This document shows, in pieces, positions 3,837-20,063 of a DNA stretch of 32,776 nt. The position numbers and the translations under genes are program-made. The notes under the pieces were generated by a model, which did no database searches, was not told where the DNA came from, and saw nothing but the letters and a program-made list of their open reading frames with translations. How positions within the stretch are numbered: the stretch's first letter is position 1; every line of letters begins with the position of its first letter. The stretch comes from a virus: the IMG/VR virus record IMGVR_UViG_3300009370_000104, positions 1-32,776 of that record; one strand, 5' to 3'.

Positions 3837-3872
3837 AAAAAAAAAGGTGGGGATGCTCCGAAGAACACCCCC
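3837..3872 (-). terminator. Rho-independent terminator of the 4.0-4.6 kb cassette
   Basis: On the minus strand, GGGGG TG ... CA TCCCC forms an imperfect G-rich stem around a short loop and is followed by a run of nine T's (A's at 3837-3845 on the plus strand). The sequence AACTGGGGGTG resembles the start of the terminator at 11889. It should insulate the cassette from the protease gene. Confidence 0.75.
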
Positions 3873-4006
3873 AGTTCAATAAAGGGTTACGAACTATAAC
3901 CCATATATTACACATAAGATTATGGAAACGAACAAGAAACCCATTGAAATGGGTTGGTCTTGCCATCTTATGTTCCAGTACATATCATCCAATTCTTGTC
4001 TTTTCA
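3873..4006. other. Short intergenic region with two extra hairpins and a stray METNKK start
   Basis: Between the cassette stop and its terminator lie two more inverted repeats: GGGTTA/TAACCC (3884-3902) and AACCCAT/ATGGGTT with a four-base loop (3938-3955). On the plus strand ATGGAAACGAACAAGAAA starts at 3922, close to the conserved start of the cassette genes; it gives a 35-codon frame ending at 4029 but lacks the cassette promoter. It may be the remnant of an oppositely oriented cassette. Confidence 0.4.
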
Positions 4007-4309
4007 TTATTTGTTCTTCCATTCTTTAATGAAGCTGTTGTATTTATGGTTCGTATAACTTCCATTCGTGAAAGGATTACTGGCTACTGGGTTTCTCTTG
4101 AGTGCTTCTGAATCATCCCAATCCCAGAATCTTCCATTCTGGCTCAAATAACCAATAGGCATCTTGTCATCCAGTATTACAGATGGATACCTATCCCCAA
4201 ATCTAGGTTCTATCCAAGCCCATTCTTTCCAGAAGCTTCTGTCCTTTCTCTTGGCTTCTTCTAACGACTTAACCTTTACAACCTTTTCTAAATTTAAAAT
4301 GATATACAT
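4007..4309 (-). CDS. Cassette protein, second gene (100 aa, unknown)
   Basis: 100 residues, basic and aromatic-rich (F-W-K-E-W-A-W-I-E-P; F-W-D-W-D-D-S), with no membrane segment or known motif that I recognise. Its ATG overlaps the preceding stop (TAATG) and is preceded by AAAGGGGGTTAAAT. The plus-strand two-gene cassette has almost the same junction at 11532. It forms a two-gene transcription unit with the Zn-ribbon-like gene upstream. The unit sits inside the head gene operon on the same strand but has its own promoter and terminator, so it is an accessory gene and not an essential head component by context. Confidence 0.7.
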   Translation of the reverse strand: MYIILNLEKVVKVKSLEEAKRKDRSFWKEWAWIEPRFGDRYPSVILDDKMPIGYLSQNGRFWDWDDSEALKRNPVASNPFTNGSYTNHKYNSFIKEWKNK

Positions 4310-4641
4310 TATTTAACCCCCTTTTGTTTTTTCCAACTCTCCAAAAGATTATCGGTTAATCTTCCACCGATTTTTAAAAGCTCGTAAAAAGTGGCATTGG
4401 CATCCAAACCTATATGGAACTTGGGAAAAGATTCGCATTCCCAACATTCGTAGGTAGCTATAAAAGGAAGCCTTTTTCCACTTCTGGAACATTCTCCACC
4501 ATAACTAGCCTTTAATTGGGTATTGTTAGAGCCACATATTGGACAATCTGCCTTTAATCCCCTTTGGAATAATAATTCCAAACCAGTTGCTTTGCTTTCC
4601 TCTGCTTGGCAGTCAGAAAGTCTTTTTTTGTTTGTTTTCAT
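4309..4641 (-). CDS. Leaderless cassette protein with Zn-ribbon-like cysteines (110 aa)
   Basis: Starts M-K-T-N-K-K-R-L-S-D-C, the shared opening of the cassette family. Two cysteine pairs, C-P-I-C (about residues 35-38) and C-W-E-C (about 71-74), could bind zinc as a ribbon or treble-clef. The C-terminus ends K-Q-K-G-V-K, as in the 11140 cassette gene (R-K-G-V-K). There is no Shine-Dalgarno site: a TAGAGT box ends six bases before the ATG, predicting a leaderless mRNA. Function is unknown. An accessory role such as interference with host or competing phages is speculation. Confidence 0.75.
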   Translation of the reverse strand: MKTNKKRLSDCQAEESKATGLELLFQRGLKADCPICGSNNTQLKASYGGECSRSGKRLPFIATYECWECESFPKFHIGLDANATFYELLKIGGRLTDNLLESWKKQKGVK

Positions 4642-4647
4642 ACTGGT

Positions 4648-4687
4648 ACTCTATCACAATATACACAAAAGCAAGGGCAAATGTATA
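4648..4687 (-). promoter_or_regulatory. Leaderless-type cassette promoter
   Basis: Reading on the minus strand: TATACA (4687-4682), 16 bases, TGTATA (4665-4660), and TAGAGT (4653-4648) six bases before the ATG. A weak -35 box TTGCTT replaces the TTGACT/A of the other copies. This arrangement recurs at five other places in the genome. Confidence 0.7.
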
Positions 4688-8538: not shown

Positions 8539-9815
8539 ATTCCCTCTCCTTTCATATATTTATTTCCCCATACAGCCAAAGCCAAGCTTATGACTGTGTC
8601 ATCATTGTATCCAGAAGCTGCCTGATACTTGGGATTGCCACTAGATGTCTTTTCATATTGGTAATTGCTCAATTCCTCAATCAAGACATTACCAATGGGG
8701 AACTTCACTTCCCCACTCTCTATCTGGAAAGCCAGATTCTGGATTATCTTTGCCTTTGTCCTGTAATCAAGGGTTATCCCAACAATCCTCAATCCAGCAA
8801 ACCTAAGCTGTTCCTCAACACTAGCTCCCATACCAGTCGCATCCAAGTATATTGGCATCTTGCCACCATACAAGTTCAAGGCATAGTTTATTCTTGACTT
8901 CTGCTGTTCAAATGTAACATCACGGCATCTGTCAATGTAAACAACCTTGTTGTCTTGGTCAATTACGGTAATGACCGTAAAGTCATTCTTCCTTGCCAAG
9001 TCTACCCCCATAGTATATGTATACTTTTCATTAAACGGTTGTGGAATATCGTATTCATCTATACATTGCTCTATGCCATAGAAAGCTCCACCACTTGAAT
9101 CAAGGAACTTCGCCAAGTATTCCTGTTCAAAGATATTTCTTGGTGTCCTCTCCCTTATTATCTGGAGCTTGTCATCCGTAATCATTGGAGATTCCGTTGA
9201 TGGTGTATGGAATGAAACCCATTCTTCCATATCCTCTTTCTGACCCCATCTCCAAGCTTCCCAGAACCAGTTCTTTCCAAGAGGTGTTGAAATCATCCAG
9301 ACTTTCGCATCCTTGACCATCAGCATTGGCTCAACATATTGCTCCCAGACCTTTCTGTGAAGCCTTGCTGCTTCATCCAGAACAACACCATCCAATGTAG
9401 CACCCAAAAGGTTGTCCAGATGCTGTGGTTCTCCAGAAAGCATTATCAATCTTGAGCCATTTGGTAGGTAAACAGTCAGGTCTGTGGCTGTAGCTTCCTC
9501 ATATCTTCCCCTAAATTGCCTTAATATTCTTGGAAATATATCCCTACGGCATTGCCGTAATGTCGGAGATACCCACCAGACTGTTGAATTGTCTTTCCTT
9601 TCAGCCAGATTAAAGGCAATATGGATGGCTAATTCGGTCTTTCCCACCTGTCTGCCAGCACATATGACAACATTCTTGCCCTCTCCCTTGTCCAAGACTT
9701 CCTGTTGCCAGTCAAAAGGCTTCCATTCTCCAGTCTTTTTCTTCTCGGCTGCCTTGATTAGTGCTGACTTTCTTCCCTCTTTCTTCTGTGTCAGCTTTGA
9801 AAAGGCTTTACTCAT
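8526..9815 (-). CDS. terL: Terminase large subunit
   Basis: 429 residues. The ATPase has Walker A C-A-G-R-Q-V-G-K-T-E (52-61), Walker B G-V-V-L-D-E-A (143-149) and the coupling motif I-S-T-P-L-G-K-N-W (175-183). The RNase H-like nuclease begins at M-G-V-D-L-A-R-K-N-D-F-T (Asp272), with I-Y-L-D-A-T-G-M-G and the late acidic G-Y-N-D-D-T. The enzyme cuts concatemers and pumps DNA through the portal. The ATG at 9815 overlaps both preceding small ORFs, one as ATGA. The domain order is complete and no key residue is missing. Confidence 0.96.
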   Translation of the reverse strand: MSKAFSKLTQKKEGRKSALIKAAEKKKTGEWKPFDWQQEVLDKGEGKNVVICAGRQVGKTELAIHIAFNLAERKDNSTVWWVSPTLRQCRRDIFPRILRQFRGRYEEATATDLTVYLPNGSRLIMLSGEPQHLDNLLGATLDGVVLDEAARLHRKVWEQYVEPMLMVKDAKVWMISTPLGKNWFWEAWRWGQKEDMEEWVSFHTPSTESPMITDDKLQIIRERTPRNIFEQEYLAKFLDSSGGAFYGIEQCIDEYDIPQPFNEKYTYTMGVDLARKNDFTVITVIDQDNKVVYIDRCRDVTFEQQKSRINYALNLYGGKMPIYLDATGMGASVEEQLRFAGLRIVGITLDYRTKAKIIQNLAFQIESGEVKFPIGNVLIEELSNYQYEKTSSGNPKYQAASGYNDDTVISLALAVWGNKYMKGEGIWVL

Positions 9816-10032
9816 CCTTGTCCAGAACCACCGATAGGGATTTCAGGGTCTTTATTTCGTAATCTATTGTCTGTGTTATGTTCTTGATTGCTGCTGAAAG
9901 CTTGTGAACATCCGTAGCCTTGATTTTCGTGTCCGAAATTTTTTTCTGAATCTCCATTTTCTCCATCTGGTTCTTTTCCATACTCAACAGGGTCTGCTGA
10001 TATAGCCGTTCTAATCTCTCGTTCTCTTTCAT
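9808..10032 (-). CDS. Small coiled-coil protein before terL; possible small terminase
   Basis: 74 residues, almost wholly helical (R-L-Y-Q-Q-T-L-L-S-M-E-K-N-Q-M-E-K-M-E-I-Q-K-K-I-S), with a second helix H-K-L-S-A-A-I-K-N-I-T-Q-T-I-D. A clear ribosome site, AAGAGGA, stands five bases before the ATG. It overlaps terL at its 3' end and is nested out of frame in the 3' half of the 10192 ORF. Position directly before terL and a helical oligomerisation-type sequence make a small terminase plausible, but no DNA-binding HTH is seen. It may be incomplete, or may be joined to the upstream frame. Confidence 0.65.
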   Translation of the reverse strand: MKENERLERLYQQTLLSMEKNQMEKMEIQKKISDTKIKATDVHKLSAAIKNITQTIDYEIKTLKSLSVVLDKDE

Positions 10033-10192
10033 CTAAATCCTCTTGTGTTATAGGTTCACTCCAAAGCACCTTGTTGTCCTTGACTTCCATCTTGTGTAGG
10101 TGGTGTTCATCAAAGGCATAGACATAGATGCCATCAGACATCCTTGCCCACTCATCAGGCAGATTACCATTTAAACTTTCCAGAAATCCCAA
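9812..10192 (-). CDS. Small protein overlapping the pre-terminase ORF (126 aa frame)
   Basis: The frame opens at a TTG (10192) preceded by GGGGA, directly at the end of the frameshift extension of the previous gene. The first 55-60 residues look like a real protein (P-D-E-W-A-R-M-S-D-G-I-Y-V-Y-A-F-D-E-H-H). The last 70 residues are Gly/Asn/Gln-rich and unlike the rest, where a convincing helical protein is encoded in the other frame. The stop overlaps the terL start as ATGA. Either this is a true out-of-frame overlap, or the functional product is shorter or frameshifted. Confidence 0.55.
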   Translation of the reverse strand: MGFLESLNGNLPDEWARMSDGIYVYAFDEHHLHKMEVKDNKVLWSEPITQEDLDEREREIRTAISADPVEYGKEPDGENGDSEKNFGHENQGYGCSQAFSSNQEHNTDNRLRNKDPEIPIGGSGQG

Positions 10193-10331
10193 TTAACTTT
10201 TCCCCATCTCGTTTCAGTATGTCAATGGAATAATTGTCATTCAGCTTTATGGAATGAACAACTCTGGCATTATCCCAGCTTGTGTCTATGTCGGAAACTA
10301 TTCCACTTAAAGTTTGTGAACTGCTTTTTTT
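10164..10331 (-). CDS. Probable -1 frameshift extension of the 10307-10624 gene
   Basis: The frame entered by slipping -1 at A-AAA-AAA (10331-10325) continues S-S-S-Q-T-L-S-G-I-V-S-D-I-D and ends K-F-K-W-stop at 10164. It has no ATG, GTG or TTG, so it cannot start on its own, yet reads like ordinary coding sequence (Y-S-I-D-I-L-K-R-D-G-E-K-L-I-G-I-S-G). It fills a 110-base gap between genes. The fused product would have about 153 residues. The same heptamer and next base are used by the tail chaperone pair at 29838-29844. Confidence 0.65.
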   Translation of the reverse strand, partial: KKSSSQTLSGIVSDIDTSWDNARVVHSIKLNDNYSIDILKRDGEKLIGISGKFKW

Positions 10332-10624
10332 GCCAGTTCCTCAATAGCTTCAGGTGTAATGATGTCCTCTTGTAAGTTGTCTATGAACTTGTGAAGCAAC
10401 TTGCTTCCAAATTCCTGATACTGTGCTACAAGCAAGTCCTCAATAACACCATCTGGAAGAATGTCCTCTATCAGGTCTTTCGCAACCTTGTCCACATCCC
10501 CATCTTCCTGTGCCTTGTCCAACCAAGCATCAACTGAAGCTTCAAGCTTCTGGGCAAATGCTGGAATGAGCTTCAACACCCATCCTCTTGCCCTATTTCG
10601 CCACCATTGACTTAATCTACTCAT
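10307..10624 (-). CDS. Helical protein of the pre-terminase region, zero-frame product (105 aa)
   Basis: 105 residues with an amphipathic N-terminus (W-W-R-N-R-A-R-G-W-V-L-K-L-I-P-A-F) and then acidic helices (K-A-Q-E-D-G-D-V-D-K-V-A-K-D-L-I-E-D-I-L-P). I do not recognise the family. A run of seven A's near the 3' end forms the slippery heptamer A-AAA-AAA followed by G, exactly in phase. The -1 frame beyond it stays open for 53 codons (see next entry), so this gene probably makes a short and a long product. It is co-directional with terL and preceded by two small membrane-protein genes. Confidence 0.7.
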   Translation of the reverse strand: MSRLSQWWRNRARGWVLKLIPAFAQKLEASVDAWLDKAQEDGDVDKVAKDLIEDILPDGVIEDLLVAQYQEFGSKLLHKFIDNLQEDIITPEAIEELAKKAVHKL

Positions 10625-10642
10625 AAGTAACCCTACCTTTTT

Positions 10643-10807
10643 TTAAGATTTGCTTGTCCTGTTTCCAAAATAGAAACCCAGAACAATCAATCCAGCATTG
10701 TTTATCGCTTCTGAATTGATTGCTGGGCATACCATAGCCAACACAAGCACCAAAGCAAGGATAGCCCTTACAGAGCCTATGGGCATATACAACGGATTTT
10801 TAGCCAT
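10643..10807 (-). CDS. Small membrane protein, holin-like (54 aa)
   Basis: 54 residues with an excellent ribosome site (GGAGGAAA, eight bases before the ATG). Two hydrophobic stretches, A-I-L-A-L-V-L-V-L-A-M-V-C-P-A (about 15-29) and A-G-L-I-V-L-G-F-Y-F-G (about 38-48), end in a basic tail (N-R-T-S-K-S). Two short membrane helices with a polar turn resemble small phage holins, but no homologue is certain. It overlaps the end of the upstream coiled-coil/membrane gene by eight bases, so both are co-translated. Confidence 0.7.
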   Translation of the reverse strand: MAKNPLYMPIGSVRAILALVLVLAMVCPAINSEAINNAGLIVLGFYFGNRTSKS

Positions 10808-11006
10808 CAATGAATTTCCTCCATATAAAAGTTACCGTGAAGCTTATTGCTGTTGTCCAGCCAAGAAGATAAACTCTCCAATCCTCAATCTTTCGCAACC
10901 TGACATCCATAGATTGGAGCATTTGTGAATCAGATTCCTGATTATCAACGATTGAATTGAGCTTTTCCTCAACCTTTGCCAAAGCAATCTCAACTTTCTT
11001 GGTCAT
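10800..11006 (-). CDS. Coiled-coil protein with C-terminal membrane anchor, XhlA-like (68 aa)
   Basis: 68 residues: a helix with heptad-like repeats (V-E-I-A-L-A-K-V-E-E-K-L-N-S-I-V, then M-D-V-R-L-R-K-I-E-D-W) followed by one membrane helix (Y-L-L-G-W-T-T-A-I-S-F-T-V-T-F-I-W) and a short basic tail. This layout matches haemolysin XhlA-type proteins, which act with holins. No Shine-Dalgarno is seen; a TAATAT box lies eleven bases upstream, so the mRNA leader must be very short. This is the first gene of the late operon on this side. A lysis role is inferred only. Confidence 0.68.
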   Translation of the reverse strand: MTKKVEIALAKVEEKLNSIVDNQESDSQMLQSMDVRLRKIEDWRVYLLGWTTAISFTVTFIWRKFIDG

Positions 11007-11017
11007 AACTGAACATA

Positions 11018-11023
11018 ATATTA
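11018..11023 (-). promoter_or_regulatory. Putative promoter for the terminase-side late operon
   Basis: The minus strand reads TTTTCACTTAATATTATG just before the first late gene. The TTAATAT core matches the motif found before the protease and tail genes, though the upstream CTTTTAT part is degenerate. It lies back to back with the plus-strand cassette promoter at 11093-11133, making a divergent control region. Confidence 0.45.
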
Positions 11024-11092
11024 AGTGAAAATCAAAAAAAATTGATAAAAATCAGCACTTTTCAGGAAAAAACCCTATATTCAAGGCGATTC

Positions 11093-11133
11093 TATACAAT
11101 TATTACTTGACTAAGTGTATATTGTGATAGACT
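11093..11133 (+). promoter_or_regulatory. Leaderless-type cassette promoter
   Basis: TATACA (11093-11098), 17 bases, TGTATA (11116-11121); TTGACT (11107-11112) between them; TAGACT (11128-11133) ending six bases before the ATG at 11140. A -10 box so close to the start codon places transcription initiation at or next to the A of ATG. Confidence 0.78.
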
Positions 11134-11139
11134 ACTAGT

Positions 11140-11532
11140 ATGGAAACAAACAAAAAAAGACTAGCTGACTCCATATTTGGAGAGGTTAGCAATGTTGTTA
11201 GAGAGTTCAAAAAAGGTTCAAGGTATTTTGGAACTGAAAAAACAGTTGTAGAAATTCTTAAAGAAAGAATGGATTTTAGAAATTTTGAGGGGAAGCTTTT
11301 TATGGTTAAAAGAGCAGCAGCATCCCAAATTATTTCTGATTGGAATGTAGTTATTCATCATTTTGATACAGTAAAAGATGAAATGGGAATTGAGTATGCT
11401 AGTGAGATGGCAATAACCGTGGCTGATGACAAGTTGGAAAGCTGGGATGATGAATCTGTTGTTTCCCCAGCAGAATGGTTTGCGAAGAAAGCTTGTGCCA
11501 TATACAGAACTGGCAGAAAAGGGGTTAAATAA
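11140..11532 (+). CDS. Leaderless cassette protein (130 aa, unknown)
   Basis: Starts M-E-T-N-K-K-R-L-A-D-S-I-F-G-E-V-S. The first 17 residues resemble those of the first early-operon gene (L-A-D-S-F-Y-A-E-V-S after the METK start). The remainder is mixed helical with no recognised motif: a basic first half (E-F-K-K-G-S-R-Y-F-G-T-E-K) and D-K-L-E-S-W-D-D-E late on. The C-terminus ends G-R-K-G-V-K, and the stop overlaps the next ATG as TAATG. Function unknown. It is the promoter-proximal gene of a two-gene cassette transcribed against the flanking late operon. Confidence 0.78.
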   Translation: METNKKRLADSIFGEVSNVVREFKKGSRYFGTEKTVVEILKERMDFRNFEGKLFMVKRAAASQIISDWNVVIHHFDTVKDEMGIEYASEMAITVADDKLESWDDESVVSPAEWFAKKACAIYRTGRKGVK

Positions 11533-11867
11533 TGAAAACAAACAAAAAGACTTCAGACCGAAAGGATGAAGCAAATGTATTTAAAATGGTTGCCTTACCT
11601 GAACAGACAGAAAAAAACAAGAATTCTTGGGGTGAATATTCCTATCAAGATGCTGAAACTTGTTACTGCTGTGGAAAAAGAGTTGAAACAGCCAAAGCAT
11701 ATTGGTTCGCACAATCTTGTGATGGCTTGGTCTATGATGTGAATGACCCTGAAGCTAACAAGATAGAGGGAGAGGGTGGAATCAGCATAGGTTGGTTCGC
11801 ACTTGGTTCTGAATGTAAGAACAAGCTTCCAAAGACACATTGCGAAAGGAAACCTCATTGGAGCTAA
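11532..11867 (+). CDS. Cassette protein with cysteine cluster (111 aa)
   Basis: Begins M-K-T-N-K-K-T-S-D-R-K although it is the second gene of its cassette, so the shared opening is not limited to promoter-proximal genes. AAAAGGGGTTAAAT precedes the ATG. It contains C-Y-C-C-G-K-R (about residues 44-50) and later cysteines in C-D-G, S-E-C-K and T-H-C-E, a plausible zinc-binding set with I-G-W-F-A-L-G-S-E-C as the distal half. This recalls small DUF-type zinc-ribbon phage proteins, but I cannot name a family. A G-rich terminator follows 22 bases after the stop. Confidence 0.75.
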   Translation: MKTNKKTSDRKDEANVFKMVALPEQTEKNKNSWGEYSYQDAETCYCCGKRVETAKAYWFAQSCDGLVYDVNDPEANKIEGEGGISIGWFALGSECKNKLPKTHCERKPHWS

Positions 11868-11888
11868 AGGAAACAATATCCTAAAACT

Positions 11889-11917
11889 GGGGGGTGTAAA
11901 AACCCCCCTTTTTTTTT
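11889..11917 (+). terminator. Rho-independent terminator
   Basis: GGGGGG (11889-11894), an eight-base loop, CCCCCC (11903-11908) and nine T's. It closes the two-gene cassette. Confidence 0.92.
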
Positions 11918-11985
11918 GTAACAATCCAAAAAAATCAATCAAATCCTGAAGAAATAGCATAAAACATCCATATTCAAGCCGATTG

Positions 11986-12026
11986 TATACATATAACACT
12001 TGACTAAGTGTATATTGATGTAGGAT
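11986..12026 (+). promoter_or_regulatory. Leaderless-type cassette promoter
   Basis: TATACA (11986-11991), 17 bases, TGTATA (12009-12014); TTGACT at 12000-12005; TAGGAT (12021-12026) seven bases before the ATG at 12034. Upstream, CATATTCAAGCCGATTG is shared almost base for base with the 11.1 kb promoter. Confidence 0.78.
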
Positions 12027-12033
12027 AGTAAGT

Positions 12034-12357
12034 ATGAGAACAAACAAAAATGCTCACCTAACAAGGAAGCAGAAAGAAATTGTAGAAGCCAACTTTGGCT
12101 TGGAAACCATTATGGTTTGGGTTAAAAAGAAAGCAGAAGAAGCTAGAGATGTTTATGATTCATTTGAAGATAGACCTCGTATACAAAAAGAAGTCCTAAG
12201 AGATTTCATTGATTGTGAACTATCTAGAATCAAATGGTCTAAACACCATTCAGAAAAAGTCAGAACCTATGTAAAGTTTGATGCCATAGCAAGGATAACT
12301 GAAGCAAAATATGGTTATGAAGAAAAAGGTTTGAAGAAATACCTAATGGAAAGCTAA
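12034..12357 (+). CDS. Leaderless cassette protein, paralogue of the 31.8 kb gene (107 aa)
   Basis: Begins M-R-T-N-K-N-A-H-L-T-R-K-Q. Aligns along its length with the 128-residue minus-strand protein at 31463-31849: L-E-T-I-M-V-W-V-K-K-K-A-E-E-A versus M-E-T-F-M-V-W-V-Y-E-K-A-A-E-T, V-L-R-D-F-I-D versus I-V-K-D-F-F-D, and F-D-A-I-A-R versus C-D-A-L-A-R. It is helical, soluble and of unknown function. It has its own promoter and terminator, so it is a single-gene cassette. No Shine-Dalgarno site. Confidence 0.8.
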   Translation: MRTNKNAHLTRKQKEIVEANFGLETIMVWVKKKAEEARDVYDSFEDRPRIQKEVLRDFIDCELSRIKWSKHHSEKVRTYVKFDAIARITEAKYGYEEKGLKKYLMES

Positions 12358-12380
12358 GGATTGATAATCCTGACCTTTGG

Positions 12381-12410
12381 GGGGGGGCAGCAATGCCCTC
12401 CCTTTTTTTT
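12381..12410 (+). terminator. Rho-independent terminator with GCAA tetraloop
   Basis: A nine-pair stem (GGGGGGGCA with TGCCCTCCC, one G-T pair) closed by a GCAA loop and followed by eight T's. It is preceded by CTGACCTTTG, which also precedes the terminators at 20064 and 31438. Confidence 0.92.
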
Positions 12411-12645
12411 ATGCCCTTACCCTGAAGCCGTAGTACCTTGTGTTTCTGCCAATGGAAATAACCCCATAGTCAATCCCATCCTTATTGAGCTGTCGCTTCA
12501 ATCTCCGTATCAACGGTTGCTTCCTGACAGTTATCTGGACTTCCCAGCAAGACACAAGGTTCGTATTCAACCTTATGGGCTTCAATCCCAGCATATTACA
12601 GACAGCTATGAACCTATAGGCATTCTCATCCTTGTCGTATTCCAT
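12409..12645 (-). CDS. Small basic protein, unknown (78 aa)
   Basis: 78 residues with a high proportion of Arg and Lys in the second half (V-R-K-Q-P-L-I-R-R-L-K-R-Q-L-N-K-D-G) and beta-like ends (Y-G-V-I-S-I-G-R-N-T-R-Y-Y-G-F-R-V). It might bind nucleic acid; no named family. The stop falls at the edge of the plus-strand cassette terminator, so the two genes converge. A TAATAT box ends seven bases before the ATG, and no Shine-Dalgarno is seen, so this transcript is also predicted leaderless. It stands alone beside the candidate origin region. Confidence 0.65.
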   Translation of the reverse strand: MEYDKDENAYRFIAVCNMLGLKPIRLNTNLVSCWEVQITVRKQPLIRRLKRQLNKDGIDYGVISIGRNTRYYGFRVRA

Positions 12646-12652
12646 ATCCGTT

Positions 12653-12684
12653 ATATTAAATGATGGATTTGAAAGTGGTTCAAA
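12653..12684 (-). promoter_or_regulatory. Promoter with overlapping inverted repeat
   Basis: On the minus strand, TTGAAC (12683-12678) and TAATAT (12658-12653) are separated by 19 bases, with the ATG seven bases further on. The perfect inverted repeat TTTGAA-N5-TTCAAA (12668-12684) covers the -35 box and is a candidate operator. Confidence 0.5.
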
Positions 12685-13248
12685 TTAGTTTGGGTCTTTA
12701 CATTACCATTTCAATCTTTTTAGGAAACTTTTACCCCCCCCTAATGTAACATAATTCAGATTATCGGAACTAATCTACCCCTGATAACAGGTAAGGAAGC
12801 TGTTCACAATAGCATAAAGGGGTGTTTTGGGGGAGAGCTGAGTCGAACCACCCAACCCCTATTCACAATCCCAACAGAACCAATCTTTCCAGAGGTACAG
12901 GGTGTACCCCCCTACCCTTTTGGGTATGAATTCATTGAAAGAAACTATTTATTTTTAATATAAAATAAATGTATATTATGAATAATCAATATGAATACTA
13001 TTGGATACCCTACCCTACCCACCGTAGTCGTTTGATGAGATGATTAAAGGATTTTAATTATTGAATCAATAAGACAAGACAATAAGCAAGACAATATTAA
13101 CGAATAACTGTTCACTTTTCAAGTCCTATATGCCACTTTGGGGATGGTTGGGCTGCTGAAACCGTTGCCCTACGGATGAAAACATCTTGGAATCGGCAAA
13201 GGGGTTACCGATACTGCCTTACCCATCCAGCTTGGAAAGTACAGCAAC
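12685..13248. other. Gene-poor region; candidate replication origin
   Basis: No convincing gene on either strand. Contents: a G/C-rich part with the hairpin GGTACA-GGG-TGTACC (about 12895-12909), two TTCACAAT copies, an A+T-rich core (about 12930-13000) with a TAATAT box, three tandem TACCC units (about 13005-13020), and a perfect 10-bp tandem repeat at 13075-13096. A+T-rich core plus short repeats beside the early operon fits a phage origin, but no initiator gene is recognised. Confidence 0.4.
13075..13096. repeat. Tandem 10-bp direct repeat (iteron-like)
   Basis: CAAGACAATA at 13075-13084 and again at 13087-13096, separated by AG; an overlapping partial AAGACAA lies just upstream at 13071. 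Confidence 0.75.
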
Positions 13249-14334
13249 CTATTCTAATTCTTTTATGACTTTTTTCAATCTCAATCCAATCCATTTGGCA
13301 ACAGGTACTGTTACGGCATTTCCCATTTGCCTGTATCTTGCCGTTTCAGGAATCTTGACCTCATCCCCATTGTCATCAATCCCAAGCTTTGTCCAATCAT
13401 CAGGAAATCCGTGTAATCGTTCACATTCAATGGGTGTCAATCTTCTGACCTTGTATTCATTTGTTACAGCAGCAGCATTTGTCCTGACATCCCCGTTGTC
13501 AAAACAGGTCAATGTTGGATGTACATTTTCTGTTGTCCATCTTTCAAAGTCATCCTTGTAGGATGGTTTTTTGCTTTTTATGAATATGTCCAATATGGTT
13601 TTCTTGCCTGTTGTAAGGGTAGGGGCTACACCATCTATTCCAAAAACCCTATATGGCTCTTGAACTTTAAGCCCATCTTTATCTACTAAACATCCTTTGA
13701 TTCCCTTATCTGTTTTTCCAGAGCTTCTTTCAATAGGGGATGTAATGTCTTGCTGTGCCTTGTTGCCCTTGTCAATATCCCCTGACAAGCTCTTTTGTTC
13801 AAATAGTATCGACTTGTAGGGTTTTCCTCTAAGATGTCTATCAATCTTTGTTCCGACAATGAAGACCCTTTTTCTTCTCTGGGGAACTCCAAAGTATTGG
13901 CTGTCCAATACTCTCCATTCACAACTATACCCCCTGTCAGCCAACGACTTGACCACAATTCCCATATCTTCCCCATTCCTTGCTGATAGTAATCCTTTGA
14001 CATTCTCAGCCAAGACATAGGTGGGTGCTCTATATTCAACACACCGAATAAACTCGTGCCATAATGAACTTCTTTTTCCTTCAAAACCTTTTCTCCTTGT
14101 ATTTCCTAATGATAAATCCTGACAAGGAAAACCACCGACATACAAGTCAGCTTCTGGCAAATCCTTTGGATTTATCTTTGACACATCCCCAAATCTCTTG
14201 ACTTGAGGATACTGGTATCTCAACACTTTCTGGCAGTTCTTGTCAATCTCAACTTGGGCTAAACAATCATATCCAGCCTGTTCCAACCCTAAGTCAAGAC
14301 CACCAACCCCAGCAAAAAAACTAACGAACTTCAT
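13249..14334 (-). CDS. DNA cytosine-5 methyltransferase
   Basis: 361 residues with the full C5 motif series: I F-F-A-G-V-G-G-L-D-L-G (6-16), IV G-G-F-P-C-Q-D-L-S with catalytic Cys71, VI A-E-N-V (109-112), VIII Q-R-R-K-R-V-F (152-158), and late motifs R-L-T-P-I-E-C-E-R-L-H-G-F-P and M-G-N-A-V-T-V-P-V. The target-recognition region lies at about 170-290. It methylates cytosine in a short site, probably shielding phage DNA from restriction. It is the last gene of the early operon; the ATG overlaps the HTH gene stop (ATGA). No cognate restriction enzyme is nearby, so it is an orphan enzyme. Confidence 0.95.
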   Translation of the reverse strand: MKFVSFFAGVGGLDLGLEQAGYDCLAQVEIDKNCQKVLRYQYPQVKRFGDVSKINPKDLPEADLYVGGFPCQDLSLGNTRRKGFEGKRSSLWHEFIRCVEYRAPTYVLAENVKGLLSARNGEDMGIVVKSLADRGYSCEWRVLDSQYFGVPQRRKRVFIVGTKIDRHLRGKPYKSILFEQKSLSGDIDKGNKAQQDITSPIERSSGKTDKGIKGCLVDKDGLKVQEPYRVFGIDGVAPTLTTGKKTILDIFIKSKKPSYKDDFERWTTENVHPTLTCFDNGDVRTNAAAVTNEYKVRRLTPIECERLHGFPDDWTKLGIDDNGDEVKIPETARYRQMGNAVTVPVAKWIGLRLKKVIKELE

Positions 14335-14576
14335 TCAAATTTGTAATCAAACAAATGTTTGGGTCTTATTTCTGTGGCATCACAAAGCTTAATCCTGTTT
14401 TCCTTTCTCACGGTTCTTCCCTTGAGCCAGTATTTGATTGTTCTTGAGCTTATGCCCATATTGTCAGCAAGTGTGTCTATCGTGCTGTCATTGGACTTTA
14501 ACCACCCTTTCAGGACATCCTCTTTCAAAGTTGCCTTTGTCTTATATGTCTTTCTTACATATCTGGCATATTTCAT
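14331..14576 (-). CDS. Small HTH regulator between two methyltransferases (81 aa)
   Basis: 81 residues, basic. The HTH is at about residues 33-55: I-D-T-L-A-D-N-M-G-I-S-S-R-T-I-K-Y-W-L-K-G-R, where the second helix would contact DNA. A tail R-P-K-H-L-F-D-Y-K follows. Both neighbours are methyltransferase genes, joined by ATGA overlaps on each side, so it may act like a restriction-system controller protein, or simply be a phage repressor. There is no promoter inside the gene cluster by eye, so any target is probably the operon promoter. Confidence 0.75.
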   Translation of the reverse strand: MKYARYVRKTYKTKATLKEDVLKGWLKSNDSTIDTLADNMGISSRTIKYWLKGRTVRKENRIKLCDATEIRPKHLFDYKFE

Positions 14577-15307
14577 ACAAACAAATTTCCTGTTCCTTTC
14601 AACAACCTCTCATTTGATAGTTTCCAATATTTTTTGCTTAATTCACTTCCTATATATCTTCTTTCTAGATTTTTGGAAGCAAGAGCTGTCGTTCCAGAAC
14701 CCATAAAAGGGTCAAATACTATGTCATTTTTATCTGTACAAGCCAAGATACAATTTTCAACAAGCTCAATAGGAAAAGGTGCTGGAAAATTATTTTTAAC
14801 ATCTGGTTTAATATCCCATATCGTAGAACTAAAAAAAGCTTCTTTCCTATAAAACTTAACTTTGCTTTCTTTTCTTTTTTTAATCCAATAAATATATTCA
14901 ATCGTTGGAAAAAAATAACTCTTATCCAATTTGGGTGTATTTCTTCTGTTCCATATCAAGGTTTGCTTTAAGGGAAAATCATATACAAACAAGGGATTGA
15001 CTTCAAGATGGTTTTTTTGTATTGGTTGGTGGTTGTAGAAAAGTGAACCTGAATCTTTCAATATTCTCAAACATTCAGTTATGACATTTCTTTGCCATTT
15101 ATTATATTCATTAGGCTCTAAACAATCATTAAAATTTTCATATTCTATTCTTCTGCTTTTTGTCCTAAAACCATTATTTATATTTCTGTTGCTACTCCAA
15201 TATCCTTTGTTGTAAGGTGGGCTTGTAACTATTAAATCAACAGAATCATCTTTGATATTCTTCATTGTTGTTAGACAATTCTCATTATAAATTCTGTTAT
15301 ATTTCAT
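14573..15307 (-). CDS. DNA methyltransferase, beta-type (N4-cytosine or N6-adenine)
   Basis: 244 residues. Catalytic motif IV T-S-P-P-Y is at 28-32, before the AdoMet motif I F-D-P-F-M-G-S-G-T-T near residue 198, an order that defines the beta group. TSPPY favours N4-cytosine or some N6-adenine enzymes. The middle (60-180) holds the target-recognition part (L-I-W-N-R-R-N-T-P-K-L-D). It modifies an amino group in duplex DNA, probably for protection. Start at 15307 overlaps the previous stop (ATGA). No partner nuclease is visible. Confidence 0.92.
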   Translation of the reverse strand: MKYNRIYNENCLTTMKNIKDDSVDLIVTSPPYNKGYWSSNRNINNGFRTKSRRIEYENFNDCLEPNEYNKWQRNVITECLRILKDSGSLFYNHQPIQKNHLEVNPLFVYDFPLKQTLIWNRRNTPKLDKSYFFPTIEYIYWIKKRKESKVKFYRKEAFFSSTIWDIKPDVKNNFPAPFPIELVENCILACTDKNDIVFDPFMGSGTTALASKNLERRYIGSELSKKYWKLSNERLLKGTGNLFV

Positions 15308-15603
15308 AATATCCTTATATTCCCACGATTATCCTCTATCTCATATGGAACATCAAGGATGACAAACTTTTCCCTATTCCTATCCCAAACCCATCCATCA
15401 GCTATCTTTTCATTGACAACATCAGAATCTTGGAGCATTGGCAATCTCTCCCATTGCCTATTACACCTTTGCTGATATGTGAATTCAGGCTCTGGATAAT
15501 ACCTTATCTTTGGTGGAGAAACAGTATATCTGCTTCCCCTACCCCAGCTCAATCCCTTTGCGACATTCCATATGTCATCTTCTCTCCAATCAAATCTACC
15601 CAT
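15304..15603 (-). CDS. Hypothetical early protein (99 aa)
   Basis: 99 residues, rich in Trp, Arg and Tyr (F-D-W-R-E-D-D-I-W-N-V; Y-Y-P-E-P-E-F-T-Y-Q-Q-R). The C-terminal part I-A-D-G-W-V-W-D-R-N-R-E-K-F-V-I looks like a strand-turn motif. No family is recognised and there is no membrane segment. AAAGGGGG before the ATG serves as ribosome site, and the start overlaps the preceding stop by eight bases. It sits in the early operon directly before the methyltransferase, so a link with DNA modification is possible but unsupported. Confidence 0.65.
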   Translation of the reverse strand: MGRFDWREDDIWNVAKGLSWGRGSRYTVSPPKIRYYPEPEFTYQQRCNRQWERLPMLQDSDVVNEKIADGWVWDRNREKFVILDVPYEIEDNRGNIRIL

Positions 15604-15898
15604 TAAAAACCCCCTTTAGTTCTTCTAAATTTTCATATATTGCTATTTCCAACATCTTGGTTGGGCTATCCAGCCAGCCTTGTGGTGGTATACAGAATAC
15701 ATTGCTGGATGAACTGGATGAATAACCCCAACCATCAACCTTGTCAATGTATTTTATAAAATCACTTTTTTGAACCAACACAGACACATTCCCTTGAAGC
15801 TTGACAGCTTCTCCCAATGTTCCTTTCTCATACCAATAGTCAAACTGGCACTTGGTTACCAATGCCAGATGGCAATCGTTAATTTTTTCTTTTGACAT
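15596..15898 (-). CDS. Hypothetical early protein with serine run (100 aa)
   Basis: 100 residues, soluble. A run of six serines (Y-S-S-S-S-S-S-N) sits in the middle, possibly a loop, and V-F-C-I-P-P-Q-G-W-L-D follows. The N-terminus reads I-N-D-C-H-L-A-L-V-T-K-C-Q-F-D-Y-W. I do not recognise it. It overlaps both neighbours, in line with the compact operon. No Shine-Dalgarno stands out, and coupling to the upstream gene is likely. Confidence 0.65.
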   Translation of the reverse strand: MSKEKINDCHLALVTKCQFDYWYEKGTLGEAVKLQGNVSVLVQKSDFIKYIDKVDGWGYSSSSSSNVFCIPPQGWLDSPTKMLEIAIYENLEELKGVFNG

Positions 15899-16061
15899 TT
15901 ATCAAGTTATCCCTTATGAACATTTGGTATCCATCAATTATCTTGTCCTTGTCACTAACAGCTTCCTTGAGCCTGACAATTTCCATATCCTTTTCGGTAT
16001 GCCTTAACTTGCTTGATTCCAGTTGGAATCTCAAGGATTTGATTTGTTCTTCTTCGGTCAT
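15879..16061 (-). CDS. Small coiled-coil protein (60 aa)
   Basis: 60 residues, highly charged, with heptad-like hydrophobic spacing (I-K-S-L-R-F-Q-L-E-S-S-K-L-R and E-I-V-R-L-K-E-A-V). It is likely one continuous helix that dimerises. ATGA overlap with the membrane-protein gene before it suggests paired expression, perhaps as a cytoplasmic partner. Role unknown. Confidence 0.6.
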   Translation of the reverse strand: MTEEEQIKSLRFQLESSKLRHTEKDMEIVRLKEAVSDKDKIIDGYQMFIRDNLINVKRKN

Positions 16062-16396
16062 TCTGGTAATGTGTGCTTAATTATAACCAATCCCTCATCC
16101 TCAATCATCTCAACCATTGAACGGCATTCCTTGTACTTCCAATCCAGCTCAAAGATTATCAAGTTCTTTTCGTGAATTGCCCTGTTCAGGTCAAAGTTCT
16201 CAAGCTGTTCAATCTCATAGGCATCAACGACAAACCCAACATTCTTGTCATATCCCTTGTAAAAGGAATACTGGTAGATGTTGCCACCCAGCGAAACCAT
16301 AAGGATTATCCAAATATGGATTGTGGCATAGACACTCAACCATTCCATAAAGTCATCTGTGAACCACTCAACCATTCTGTGAAACCAATTTCTCAT
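16058..16396 (-). CDS. Single-pass membrane protein (112 aa)
   Basis: 112 residues: a short N-terminal part (N-W-F-H-R-M-V-E-W-F-T-D-D-F), one membrane segment (Y-A-T-I-H-I-W-I-I-L-M-V-S-L-G-G, about 23-38) and a charged soluble domain of some 70 residues (L-N-R-A-I-H-E-K-N-L-I-I-F-E-L-D). TAATG overlap with the preceding gene. A membrane protein in an early operon may act in superinfection exclusion or replication anchoring; the sequence does not decide. No known motif. Confidence 0.65.
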   Translation of the reverse strand: MRNWFHRMVEWFTDDFMEWLSVYATIHIWIILMVSLGGNIYQYSFYKGYDKNVGFVVDAYEIEQLENFDLNRAIHEKNLIIFELDWKYKECRSMVEMIEDEGLVIIKHTLPE

Positions 16397-16662
16397 TATC
16401 CTGACCCCCTGTGCTTTTTCATATAGTTATATAGTTTATCCACTTCCTTGTATCTTTGAGAATTTTCCTGATTGTTGTCCTCATAGTGCCATAGAAGCTC
16501 GTGGAGCAATCCCTTGTATTCTTTTTCATCTGGCTTTGTCTGAATCAAGTCTTGTTTGTGGGAGCTCCACCCAAGCTCCCTATAACAAACCAGCAAGAGC
16601 AATCTTGCCTTTTCAACAACTCCCTTGTGTGAATGACCCCAACCCCATTGGGTGTTAATCAT
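16396..16662 (-). CDS. Hypothetical early protein (88 aa)
   Basis: 88 residues, helical and rich in His, Trp, Tyr and Lys. It has G-W-G-H-S-H-K-G-V-V-E-K-A-R-L-L-L-L-V-C near the start and L-L-H-E-L-L-W-H-Y-E-D-N-N in the middle. Histidines and a cysteine could coordinate metal, but no standard motif is formed. The ATG overlaps the stop of the annealing-like gene (ATGA). Unknown function. Confidence 0.62.
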   Translation of the reverse strand: MINTQWGWGHSHKGVVEKARLLLLVCYRELGWSSHKQDLIQTKPDEKEYKGLLHELLWHYEDNNQENSQRYKEVDKLYNYMKKHRGSG

Positions 16663-17702
16663 TGTAGGCAGTTGATAATCATACTGGCTTCCTTTGTATC
16701 CAAAGCCTTAAAGGTTTTCTTGAATTGGTGTAATATCCAAGATTCCAACCTTTCTTCTGAAATCCCCCTTTTTGAAGCCAAGCCCATTATCCAGCTAATC
16801 TGCTTTTCGGAAATATCCTTGACTCGGTACTTGAAATCAATATCCCTATTGAGCTTTGGGAAATCTGAAAAGTGTTCTTCCATATCAACTGGTGGCAAGT
16901 CATCTTGTGTGATGACCCCATCAACACCAATCTCAACAATGGCATCCTCAACAGCCAATTCTTCTTCAGCCAACGGTTCAAGCTTCTTTGTCTTGAAACC
17001 CTTGTAGAGCTTTTCCCATTGTTTCCACTTCGCTTCGTATCTTTTCCAACCAAGTGTGTCAAGGCACTTTTCCATATTGCCGAATACGGAACTTGGGAAT
17101 TTCATTCTTGAATCTTCTGAATCAATGTCAGGGTTTTCTTCTTTCATCTGATTCTCATATTCTTTCTTGAGTTCCTTGATATGACTAAACAGCTCTTGCT
17201 TCTTGGCATCCTCTCCAGACATTCCACCAGCCGTTTCCTTGACATCCTTTGTTTTAGCCTTGATGGATTTCTTCGGTTCAGGTTTCGGTTCTTCCTTTGG
17301 TTCTTCCTTTGGTTCTTCCTCAGCCTTGTCATAGAACTCGCTGACTTCCCTTTCTTGTAGTATCCTTTCTTGGGCAATCATCATTTCTTCTGCTGAAGCT
17401 CTCCCTTTGCCCTTAAAACCTATCACTAAACTCAAGGCACGACCAGTTGCTGATGTGGAACTTGTTTCAGCCCAGTTTGTGGCTTCAGCACCCCTTGACT
17501 TGGATTGCCAATCCATAGCAATATCAACCCCAGCTGGGATTGAATCTTTTATATCCTTATAGACAGAGCATTTGACAAGAACCCTTTTGCCATCTGCCGA
17601 TATTTCTATAACCTCATTGATGATAGCTCCATTTGGATAGGTCTTGTGAAATCTCACAATCCTATCCTGAACCATCTCATAATCCTTTACATTAAACCTC
17701 AT
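16659..17702 (-). CDS. Putative ERF/single-strand-annealing-like early protein (347 aa)
   Basis: 347 residues in three parts. The N-terminal domain (1-100) starts Y-E-M-V-Q-D-R-I-V-R-F-H-K-T-Y-P-N-G and holds W-A-E-T-S-S-T-S-A-T-G-R-A-L-S (77-91), a signature of phage proteins thought related to ERF-type annealing proteins. A repeated P-K-E-E and basic linker follows (about 120-170). The C-terminal helical part I-S-W-I-M-G-L-A-S-K-R-G-I-S and A-S-M-I-I-N-C-L resembles the tail of several phage recombination proteins. It is the only gene in the window resembling DNA replication or recombination. AAGGGGGT precedes the ATG. ERF assignment is by motif only. Confidence 0.6.
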   Translation of the reverse strand: MRFNVKDYEMVQDRIVRFHKTYPNGAIINEVIEISADGKRVLVKCSVYKDIKDSIPAGVDIAMDWQSKSRGAEATNWAETSSTSATGRALSLVIGFKGKGRASAEEMMIAQERILQEREVSEFYDKAEEEPKEEPKEEPKPEPKKSIKAKTKDVKETAGGMSGEDAKKQELFSHIKELKKEYENQMKEENPDIDSEDSRMKFPSSVFGNMEKCLDTLGWKRYEAKWKQWEKLYKGFKTKKLEPLAEEELAVEDAIVEIGVDGVITQDDLPPVDMEEHFSDFPKLNRDIDFKYRVKDISEKQISWIMGLASKRGISEERLESWILHQFKKTFKALDTKEASMIINCLQ

Positions 17703-17992
17703 TGTATTGACCCCCTTATGTGTGTGAACAGTTTCTTGTAGGGTGTTCTACCCCTTTGCGACACTCCAGTTCTATTGAACAGAATATCCTCTGAAATACT
17801 TGTCAGGAACGACAATCGTTTCCTGACTTCCAAAGATGGAGATATACCCTTTCTGTATTGGTAATAAGCACATCTTGTCAGCTCTGCTATCTTACAGAAT
17901 TCTGATATGGACAGCTTTCTCTCATCTCTCCAATCATCCAGCAAACTCATATTTACTGAACACCTTGTAATCCTTTCTTGTGGCATAGTCAT
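17699..17992 (-). CDS. Cro/C1-type HTH regulator (97 aa)
   Basis: 97 residues if the start is the ATG at 17992, which overlaps the previous stop as ATGA; a start at 17950 (AAGGTG upstream) would give 83. The HTH is L-S-I-S-E-F-C-K-I-A-E-L-T-R-C-A-Y-Y-Q-Y-R (about 27-48), typical of the Cro/C1 fold with a tyrosine-rich recognition helix. A basic C-terminus follows. It may repress the divergent promoters near 19.4 kb or the cassette promoters sharing TATACA/TGTATA; neither is shown. Confidence 0.75.
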   Translation of the reverse strand: MTMPQERITRCSVNMSLLDDWRDERKLSISEFCKIAELTRCAYYQYRKGISPSLEVRKRLSFLTSISEDILFNRTGVSQRGRTPYKKLFTHIRGSIQ

Positions 17993-18363
17993 AAATCATA
18001 ACCCCCATTTACTTCCCCATATGAATACACAAAGTATGCTTCTTGAGCTTCTGGATGCCTTAAAAGAGCTGTTAGAGTTGATGCCTGATTCTCATCAAGC
18101 TCGTAATACTGCTCTTGGAAATTAACCCTATGGGTTGTTATCTCCCAACCATCATTTCTCATTTCGTGAATACGGCTTGGGTATCTGAACCCAATCTTAT
18201 TCAACATCAAAGACAATACCTTACCATCCCCATTCTGCTTTCTGAATAAAAGCTTCATAAGAATCTTACCTTTTTGAGTACCTCTCTTATATACTCTCGG
18301 AAGCTTTATCAGCTTCTGTTCCAAGTCTTTGGGCAACTTGGATGCCCATTTTTTATTAGTCAT
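17989..18363 (-). CDS. Winged-helix/HTH_39-like DNA-binding protein (124 aa)
   Basis: 124 residues from the ATG at 18363, chosen because AAAGGGGGT stands four bases before it; the frame runs further upstream without an RBS and overlaps the neighbour. The core I-L-M-K-L-L-F-R-K ... M-L-N-K-I-G-F-R-Y-P-S-R-I-H-E-M-R-N-D-G-W-E-I resembles the small phage HTH family with a Y/RxxxRIxxLRxxG signature (HTH_39). It should bind DNA as a regulator. N-terminus M-T-N-K-K-W recalls the cassette start but uses a Shine-Dalgarno. Confidence 0.72.
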   Translation of the reverse strand: MTNKKWASKLPKDLEQKLIKLPRVYKRGTQKGKILMKLLFRKQNGDGKVLSLMLNKIGFRYPSRIHEMRNDGWEITTHRVNFQEQYYELDENQASTLTALLRHPEAQEAYFVYSYGEVNGGYDL

Positions 18364-18374
18364 AATGACCCCCT

Positions 18375-18650
18375 TTAAAAGTGATTCGGTACGAATATCG
18401 GAATGTTGGAAATACACAAAGCAAAAGCTTCTTTCCTTTCTTCCGACCATTCTTCCATTTTTCCTTTCTTGTTCAGGATGGCATTAGCCATTCCTACCCA
18501 ATATGTAATCCAACTCAAGTCGCTCTTGTAGTTGGACTTCACATTACCCAATGGATGCTCTGGGAAACCCTCAAGTTCACAATTATTGTTGTACTGAATA
18601 CCCTCAAGGATTGCTTCATCTGTGCTGTTTGCTACCTGATAAGCTTCCAT
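18375..18650 (-). CDS. Hypothetical early protein (91 aa)
   Basis: 91 residues, acidic N-terminal half (S-T-D-E-A-I-L-E-G-I-Q-Y-N-N-N-C) and a helix W-I-T-Y-W-V-G-M-A-N-A-I-L-N-K-K-G-K in the centre. No motif is recognised and there is no clear membrane segment. The ATG overlaps the stop of the first operon gene (TAATG). Its place as second gene of the early operon suggests early expression, perhaps against host functions. Unknown otherwise. Confidence 0.65.
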   Translation of the reverse strand: MEAYQVANSTDEAILEGIQYNNNCELEGFPEHPLGNVKSNYKSDLSWITYWVGMANAILNKKGKMEEWSEERKEAFALCISNIPIFVPNHF

Positions 18651-19381
18651 TATTTGTTCTCCCTGATAGTGATTGGTTTAATATCATCAAATGTTGTAAT
18701 ACCATTGAAGCTTACTTTGATTGATGACCAAGTATCTCCATCCCAATCAATCTCAAAGTCAATCAATCTTGAAAAGTCATACTTGTCAAGTTCTTTCTCA
18801 AGTTCTTCAATGAATATCTGTGAATGTCCATAGTTGTAACAGACACTAGCTTTGAAGCTATGTGTAAAGTGTCTATATCCATCAGATTCATCATTGACAC
18901 CATATGTGTCCATTTCATAAACCTTTACATTCTTTCCAGATTTTCTGTAATCATCAAAAAGATTATCAACAACACCAACATAACCAGCTTCATCAGATTC
19001 ATTAACCTCATAAGAGATTTTCATTCTGTTTACCCTACTGATTACTGTTGATAGGATTTTTCTGGCAAGTCTGTAGTTGAACAACATTGTTTTTTCTTCT
19101 GAATCAAGAACAGCAACACTACTTCCAGAATCAACCCAATCAACTTCGTGGTCATTAGCTTTCCTCTTATAGCTTGGAGTTATGTTGATGTTTCCATCAG
19201 CATCCAACTCCATATTCTTGACCTTGATTACTCTGTAAGCAGTTGCTTTTTTCAAAGCTTTTTCAGCTGTCCATTTCATCAATTCAACCATACCCAAAAC
19301 CTCTTTAAGAGATTTTTCATCTTTCAATTTACTAACCTCAGCATAAAAGCTGTCAGCTAGATTTAAACTTTTTGTTTCCAT
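18650..19381 (-). CDS. First early-operon protein, leaderless, cassette-like start (243 aa)
   Basis: 243 residues from the ATG at 19381; the frame extends ten codons upstream but that part overlaps the promoter. It begins M-E-T-K-S-L-N-L-A-D-S-F-Y-A-E-V-S, close to the 11140 cassette protein. A basic region (A-L-K-K-A-T-A-Y-R-V-I-K) is followed by a long beta-like stretch with acidic residues (S-D-E-A-G-Y-V-G-V-V-D-N-L-F-D-D). No known family. TAGGGT ends seven bases before the ATG and no Shine-Dalgarno is present, so translation should be leaderless. It leads a thirteen-gene operon. Confidence 0.78.
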   Translation of the reverse strand: METKSLNLADSFYAEVSKLKDEKSLKEVLGMVELMKWTAEKALKKATAYRVIKVKNMELDADGNINITPSYKRKANDHEVDWVDSGSSVAVLDSEEKTMLFNYRLARKILSTVISRVNRMKISYEVNESDEAGYVGVVDNLFDDYRKSGKNVKVYEMDTYGVNDESDGYRHFTHSFKASVCYNYGHSQIFIEELEKELDKYDFSRLIDFEIDWDGDTWSSIKVSFNGITTFDDIKPITIRENK

Positions 19382-19388
19382 AATTGAT

Positions 19389-19430
19389 ACCCTACAACAT
19401 AATAGACACACTTGTCAAGTGTTTTGTATA
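19389..19430 (-). promoter_or_regulatory. Early operon promoter with palindromic operator
   Basis: On the minus strand TTGACA (19418-19413) and TAGGGT (19394-19389) are 18 bases apart, the latter seven bases before the ATG. A near-perfect palindrome ACACTTG-T-CAAGTGT (19408-19422) covers the -35 box, and TATACA lies upstream at 19430-19425. The downstream TGTATA half is altered to TGTGTC, unlike the cassette promoters. Confidence 0.72.
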
Positions 19431-19507
19431 GTGAATTGGTACTTTCTGATGCTTTTATATACACCAACAGGGAAACAGACACCTTATTCCTGTTCAGCTA
19501 TTCAGGT

Positions 19508-19590
19508 TATAATGGAAGAACTCAAAAGCTCCAACGAGGGCTAGGGTTATTGGGTTGAGGGTTGGTTAGCTGCCAGCCCTCTTTTTTTTT
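19508..19590 (+). ncRNA. Candidate ~70-nt small RNA with own promoter and terminator
   Basis: A perfect TATAAT (19508-19513) without a strong -35 box is followed about 45 bases later by a nine-pair terminator stem (GAGGGTTGG with CCAGCCCTC, 19557-19581) and nine T's. The predicted RNA (about 19520-19590) has no room for a gene. A ten-codon frame (MEELKSSNEG) starts inside the TATAAT box and ends before the hairpin, so a leader-peptide/attenuator reading is possible if transcription starts further upstream. Confidence 0.5.
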
Positions 19591-19662: not shown

Positions 19663-19705
19663 TATACATTTACCTATTGACTATGTGTATATTATCGTAT
19701 AGATT
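19663..19705 (+). promoter_or_regulatory. Leaderless-type cassette promoter
   Basis: TATACA (19663-19668), 17 bases, TGTATA (19686-19691); TTGACT at 19677-19682; TAGATT (19700-19705) seven bases before the ATG at 19713. Confidence 0.77.
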
Positions 19706-20039: not shown

Positions 20040-20063
20040 GACCAAAAAGTAACTGACCTTTGG

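Follow-up and report, generated by a model that had tools for sequence, protein, structure and literature searches.

A repeated TATACA/TGTATA dyad at the early operon and five small-gene cassettes of an uncultured phage is probably an operator

Phage morons are additional genes, each equipped with a promoter and a terminator, that are gained or lost between relatives. The stoperators of phage L5 represent a repeated operator for one phage regulator, and their sites are asymmetric sequences of 13 bp. They are named in PMC3203893. Cluster K mycobacteriophages have ESAS elements in several copies per genome before non-structural genes, and these consist of inverted repeats around a sigma-70-type promoter (PMC3203893, PMC11373665, PMC12699233). 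Phage Adephagia has seven copies of a 46–47 bp module with a SigA-like promoter and inverted repeats, for which the authors propose repression by an unidentified regulator (PMC11373665). Aca proteins repress promoters that have inverted repeats in the core (PMC9410906). In archaeal viruses such as SIRV2 many small, unlike early genes are under one regulatory sequence; the sequence has been used to predict anti-defence genes, and the shut-off is thought to be due to the wHTH protein Aca8 (PMC11065993). No earlier description of a TATACA/TGTATA dyad in phages, and nothing relevant on leaderless morons, was found in the open-access literature.

The DNA analyzed here, called the window (32,776 bp), is an IMG/VR virus record with an identical direct repeat of 78 bp at positions 1–78 and 32699–32776. 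This repeat makes it probable that the record is a whole phage genome of about 32.7 kb, assembled as a circle. It has HK97-type head genes and genes for portal, terminase, tape measure and tail proteins. Among 49 PHROG queries, which include two alternative starts of one gene, nothing is named as an integrase, a CI repressor or any other lysogeny gene, and searches for tRNAs and against Rfam gave no match. The closest relative found by TerL and portal searches is G001 (IMGVR_UViG_3300030329_004796, 32,104 bp), with a TerL that is 96% identical. More distant relatives have 58–63% identity in TerL or portal, all portal and TerL matches in named phages are below 60%, and a TerL profile search of genome contigs found no relative. 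Both ends of the G001 contig (L152 1–1400 and L153 14590–16105) map to the same part of the window with different sequences, and the contig may mix variants or hold a divergent duplication. The early-operon block (window 13245–19519, L153 3349–7861 in G001) has opposite orientations in the two phages with respect to the structural genes. Short similar sequences are present at its edges and no recombinase gene is named; the inversion may be a misassembly.

The pattern TATACA-N14-19-TGTATA has exactly five matches in the whole window (4660–4687, 11093–11121, 11986–12014, 19663–19691 and 31871–31898), each directly 5' of a gene start. No match was present in any of 100 dinucleotide shuffles of the window, and the chance expectation for an N16 or N17 dyad is about 0.014 if bases are independent. 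A first-pass annotation had assigned these half-sites to five cassette promoters with centers 22–23 bp apart, and both statements hold in the window, although the interval it gave, 11093–12026, takes in only two of the five dyads. It had also tied the spacing to the strand. The spacer is indeed N17 at the three plus-strand genes and N16 at the two minus-strand genes, but this is not a rule, because the G001 promoter matching the position of 19663 has N16 where the window has N17. The -35 box described between the halves is TTGAC in four of the five; the copy at 4687 reads TTGCT. The promoters, cassettes and early operon are as follows.

4660–4687, minus strand: putative operator/promoter A, TATACA-N16-TGTATA around TTGCT, with TAGAGT 6 nt 5' of the ATG at 4641
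4007–4641, minus strand: cassette A, two small orphan genes (4309–4641 and 4007–4309), terminator-like stem at 3848–3873
11093–11121, plus strand: putative operator/promoter B, TATACA-N17-TGTATA around TTGAC, with TAGACT 6 nt 5' of the ATG at 11140
11140–11867, plus strand: cassette B, genes 11140–11532 and 11532–11867, terminator-like stem at 11889–11908
11986–12014, plus strand: putative operator/promoter C, TATACA-N17-TGTATA around TTGAC, with TAGGAT 7 nt 5' of the ATG at 12034
12034–12357, plus strand: cassette C gene, 107 aa, terminator-like stem at 12379–12404
19403–19430, minus strand: putative operator/promoter D of the early operon, TATACA-N16-TGTCTA around TTGACA, with TAGGGT 7 nt 5' of the ATG at 19381
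13249–19381, minus strand: early operon, first gene 18650–19381, then small genes, three HTH-type proteins and two DNA methyltransferases
19663–19691, plus strand: putative operator/promoter E, TATACA-N17-TGTATA around TTGAC, with TAGATT 7 nt 5' of the ATG at 19713
19713–20039, plus strand: cassette E gene, 108 aa, start corrected from 19656, terminator-like stem at 20062–20089
31871–31898, minus strand: putative operator/promoter F, TATACA-N16-TGTATA around TTGAC, with TAGATT 6 nt 5' of the ATG at 31849
31407–31949, minus strand: entire cassette F, with promoter, gene 31463–31849 and terminator-like stem at 31415–31440

A terminator-like stem thus closes all five window cassettes. Earlier start calls for 19656 and 18650–19411 fell upstream of or inside the operator.

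A search for the motif in related phages, which the first-pass annotation had proposed, reveals five further exact dyads in G001 and none in G002–G006 (G004 is 31.4 kb; the other four are fragments of 7–11 kb). In G004 (58% portal identity; L159 2450–5380), which is without the dyad, a repeat, AAGGAGATAAATTTATG, precedes eight to nine small-gene starts, and there are repeated stem-like intergenic sequences. The G004 repeat is a different start-associated sequence that recalls the mycobacteriophage SAS.

In IMG/VR at large, TATACA-N15-18-TGTATATTR is found in at least 120 stretches; among the matches listed with TTGA between the halves, only the G001 contig has the promoter layout. A tighter pattern matches 19 IMG/VR stretches, and again only the G001 contig shows the layout. 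In bacterial and archaeal genomes the tighter pattern has two copies, with identical flanks, in two Bacteroidetes MAGs. These are judged to be chance, with no start codon placed as in the phage. By these sequence searches the motif is known from two phages.

All 11 promoters of the two phages follow one design: TATACA - N6-8 - TTGAC/TTGAT/TTGCT - N4-5 - TGTATATT - N4-7 - TAGRNT - N6-7 - ATG. TGTCTATT stands in place of TGTATATT in one of the 11, and none has a clear ribosome-binding site. With the A of the ATG as +1, the half-sites span roughly -50 to -41 and -27 to -19, and the center of the dyad falls at -32.5 to -36 from the start codon, i.e., on the -35 box. A comparison of 50 non-orthologous promoter pairs shows mean identities of 1.00 for TATACA and 0.98 for TGTATATT, values to be read with the search pattern in mind, as it fixes parts of TATACA, TTG, TGTATATT and TAGRNT. 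The same pairs have identities of 0.48 and 0.42 in the spacers, 0.46 in the upstream 30 bp and 0.48 in the first 36 coding bases. In a less biased test, starts in both phages were chosen only by ATGRRAAC and an ORF of at least 60 aa. This gave 16 ORFs, four of them in frame within longer genes, and 11 of the remaining 12 have both halves upstream (ten exact, one with TGTCTA). The sole exception, 11532, follows another gene in a two-gene cassette and has an SD-like site. On the negative side, the motif is present in only two closely related phages, and orthologous pairs leave about six independent sites. The mirror-image, near-invariant halves and their recurrence in a second phage support the earlier proposal of an operator for a dimeric regulator around the -35 box, which is the most economical explanation.

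The promoter of the early operon is where the first-pass annotation is not sustained. It had described one half as lost and replaced by an ACACTTG-N-CAAGTGT palindrome, so that cassettes and early genes could be under separate control. The right half persists as TGTCTA, with one mismatch at N16, and the G001 counterpart is an exact dyad (23751–23778). The palindrome, ACACTTG-A-CAAGTGT, exists, but its arms are 7 bp in the window and 5 bp in G001, and it is mostly the -35 box. Because the G001 early promoter carries the exact dyad, promoter D reads as an ordinary member of the family whose window copy has, by sequence comparison, decayed by one base in the right half. The early promoter belongs to the same family in both phages, which argues against separate control.

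Cassette content gives a second argument on this point. The first gene of the G001 early operon encodes a protein 64% identical to that of cassette F (31463–31849). Cassette F itself is missing from the same place in G001, where its flanks join, so that a promoter-gene-terminator unit present in one relative and absent from the other, as in morons, is seen for one of the five cassettes. The G001 gene at position A is 43% identical to the first cassette B protein of the window, and the G001 B protein is 74% identical in its C-terminal part to the second cassette B protein but has a different N-terminus. The cassettes are moron-like, and judging from these sequences genes apparently exchange positions among the cassette sites and with the early-operon head via the shared promoter and start region. 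Such exchange contradicts the idea that cassettes and early genes are controlled separately. In Pfam, NCBIfam and PHROGs the cassette proteins have no family beyond Pfam matches below the cut-off and are thus orphans. In named phages the 31463–31849 protein has no tblastn match and the 11532–11867 protein has one weak match (Arthrobacter phage, 31%). A viral-contig search with 31463–31849 gave no relative, which is weak evidence since it also missed the G001 copy.

The starts of these genes are predicted to be leaderless, with transcription beginning on the start codon or no more than about one base away from it. A TANNNT box about 10–12 bp before the start marks leaderless genes (Zheng et al., PMC3160421). 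In a hand-made list of 46 starts, TANNNT is present 6–7 nt before the start in all six cassette and early starts and in one of the 40 others (Fisher 7e-7). The lone other start, 12645, apparently has its own promoter. The six pair less well with a generic anti-SD than the other starts do (one-sided p=0.01). A TANNNT box without a clear SD, a feature of leaderless genes, is seen at these starts. Within cassette A, 4309–4641 is predicted to be leaderless and 4007–4309 has an SD-like site. Several internal genes of the minus-strand operon in window 9500–19400 use a G-rich SD-like site, AAGGGGGT, and not AGGAGG.

The pattern TTGAC-N15-19-TAGRNT-N6/7-ATGRAAACAA matches 93 IMG/VR loci, among which the dyad is seen by eye in the G001 contig only. 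The control pattern overlapped the test pattern, as TAGGAT fits both; after separation there are 54 TAGGAT matches (11 clusters), 40 matches to other TAGRNT (30 clusters) and 26 to the control only (19 clusters). TAGGAT looks enriched, yet the matches come from few contig families, and no conclusion is drawn. Many IMG/VR contigs (L171, L184, L218, L227, L229 and similar loci) have TTGACA-N-TAGGAT-N6/7-ATGAAAACAA before small ORFs without the dyad; leaderless starts of this type may be common in phages. One of these contigs has a short stretch in common with a Pelagibacter phage.

Three proteins of the early operon, all named in the first-pass annotation, are candidates for the regulator.

14331–14576, minus strand: 81-aa Cro/C1-type HTH protein (Pfam HTH_26, 23.8 bits against a cut-off of 22)
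17699–17992, minus strand: second candidate, 97-aa weak XRE/HTH-like protein (weak PHROG match)
17989–18363, minus strand: third candidate, 124-aa possible winged-HTH protein (sub-cut-off Pfam match; start corrected from 18450)

The 81-aa protein has a 90% identical counterpart in G001 and none by tblastn in G004, whereas the 17699 and 17989 proteins have homologues in motif-free G004 with 42% and 37% identity. It is favored because it is the only HTH-type protein of the three found in both operator phages yet not in G004, a thin distribution over three phages. It is thus the best candidate of the three for an operator-binding repressor, a tentative assignment that may well be wrong. Should it hold, the repressor of the early operon would be a product of that operon. 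A PDB sequence search with this protein gave nothing under E 0.1. The predicted structure of 17989–18363 is a helix-and-wing fold of low confidence (pLDDT 65.5) with no significant fold match. A 78-aa protein (12409–12645) is likewise confined to the two operator phages and its gene has its own TANNNT-N7 start. It was rejected as a regulator: the model (pLDDT 79) is alpha-beta-beta-alpha-beta-beta, not HTH, and has no significant PDB match. The 81-aa HTH gene is flanked by genes for a C5-cytosine (13249–14334) and an N4/N6 (14573–15307) DNA methyltransferase, and in this position its product may have another role. G001 is without both methyltransferases and keeps the HTH gene.

The dyad is real and looks functional, and the reading that probably applies is an operator of one repressor regulon consisting of the early operon and five small-gene units. 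We infer a course in which all six host-type promoters, with a TTGAC-like box and TAGRNT, would be used by host RNA polymerase as soon as infection begins, one driving the early operon and five the moron-like cassettes scattered over both strands. The whole set, the early operon included, would then be shut off by one of that operon's own products, the 81-aa HTH protein being the likeliest. The repressor, as a dimer or two cooperating dimers, would bind the dyad, centered on the -35 box, from one side of the DNA, with its contacts separated by two helical turns. A protein bound there should block RNA polymerase because of the position of the dyad center. Counting against a repressor, a 1-bp variation in spacing is rare between the half-sites of a single dimer, and no lysogeny gene that would call for such a repressor is named in the PHROG queries. 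The -35/-10 spacer is 15 bp in six of the 11 promoters, 17 in two and 18 in three; 15 bp is poor for sigma-70 and counts against a host-type promoter.

The short spacers also suggest that the promoters are weak alone, as would be expected if the dyad bound an activator, of phage or host, that turned on cassettes and early operon together. MerR-type activators do bind within the promoter spacer. However, a dyad centered on the -35 box with its right half in the core promoter normally blocks polymerase, and expression of the early operon would depend on a protein probably encoded in that same operon, so that activation has only a small chance of being correct. The halves could instead be promoter elements read by host or modified RNA polymerase: TGTATATT is or contains a -10 box, TATATT, and TATACA is a poor -35 box 18–19 bp upstream. 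TATATT agrees with TATAAT in five of six positions and is intact in ten of the 11 promoters, and a consensus scan favors TATACA-18-TATATT as the promoter at A and F. This is unlikely, though, since it leaves the exact mirror-image blocks unexplained (about 0.002 by chance, given the conserved 8-mer) and TTGAC-like boxes are kept between the halves. TATATT is 16 to 19 nt from the ATG, compared with 6–7 nt for TAGRNT, and the window early promoter is without TATATT yet keeps TTGACA and TAGGGT.

A host protein could also be the regulator, with the phage timing its genes by a host signal. In favor of this, a classical CI or Cro pair is not among the named genes of the phage. Against this, a collection of genomes from 84,980 species has the tighter pattern only twice, without phage-like placement of a start codon, so that a host regulon with the exact composite promoter is not seen, although a host operator without the phage -35 box would escape the pattern; a host regulator is accordingly improbable. 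It is very improbable that the dyad is functionless, its promoters being recent copies spread by recombination and its halves alike by descent. The promoters and gene starts are clearly homologous and the cassettes recombine there, but the halves are 98–100% identical in non-orthologous copies whose upstream 30 bp, spacers and 36 coding bases are only 42–48% identical.

If the repressor regulon is taken further as an Aca-like anti-defence regulon, an early-operon HTH protein would act on six leaderless promoters with exchangeable anti-defence genes in the cassettes. This extension, drawn by analogy, is doubtful, and an anti-defence role of the cassette genes is a guess; the two DNA methyltransferases of the early operon are cited alongside it. 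If it were true, the shared promoter and start region would let new genes enter the regulon by recombination, and the operator would serve as bait for new bacterial-phage anti-defence genes, as in archaeal viruses. For the repressor regulon itself, one regulatory signal and one testable regulator would connect ten or more orphan genes in a group of uncultured phages. Small accessory genes would move between phages and positions, including the head of the early operon, yet stay under one switch. The shared operator with TANNNT-N6/7-ATG is also a cheap rule for start-site correction, which applies to two window genes.

Comparison with the known systems shows several likenesses. As in the Aca systems, a small HTH protein comes from the regulated operon (here the HTH gene 14331–14576 in the early operon), the inverted repeat is within the core promoter if transcription starts at the start codon, and an early burst followed by shut-off, as in Aca-acr, is proposed. 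Neither an acr gene nor a named homologue of Aca came up in the window, and Aca operators usually serve one operon whereas there are six separate promoters here. The archaeal viruses have TATA/BRE promoters; the elements here are of bacterial type. Morons are usually thought to be independently expressed, whereas these cassettes share one operator with the early operon. The L5 stoperator consensus shows no excess in the window (one match, 1.7 expected). The ESAS-linked 13-bp sequence GGGATAGGAGCCC has one match with two mismatches in the window (0.42 expected) and none near the six starts. The ESAS likeness is in repeats around a sigma-70-type promoter at several intergenic places, also seen here with a predicted promoter. 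The ESAS repeats are imperfect, 15–17 bp long, with spacers of 4–13 or 12–14 bp, whereas the halves here are exact 6-bp sequences separated by N16 or N17. ESAS is not on the Adephagia early promoter, whereas the early operon is included here, and unlike ESAS the present promoters have predicted leaderless starts and serve cassettes located among structural genes on both strands. Similar arrangements are thus known in other phages, and the present form looks new.
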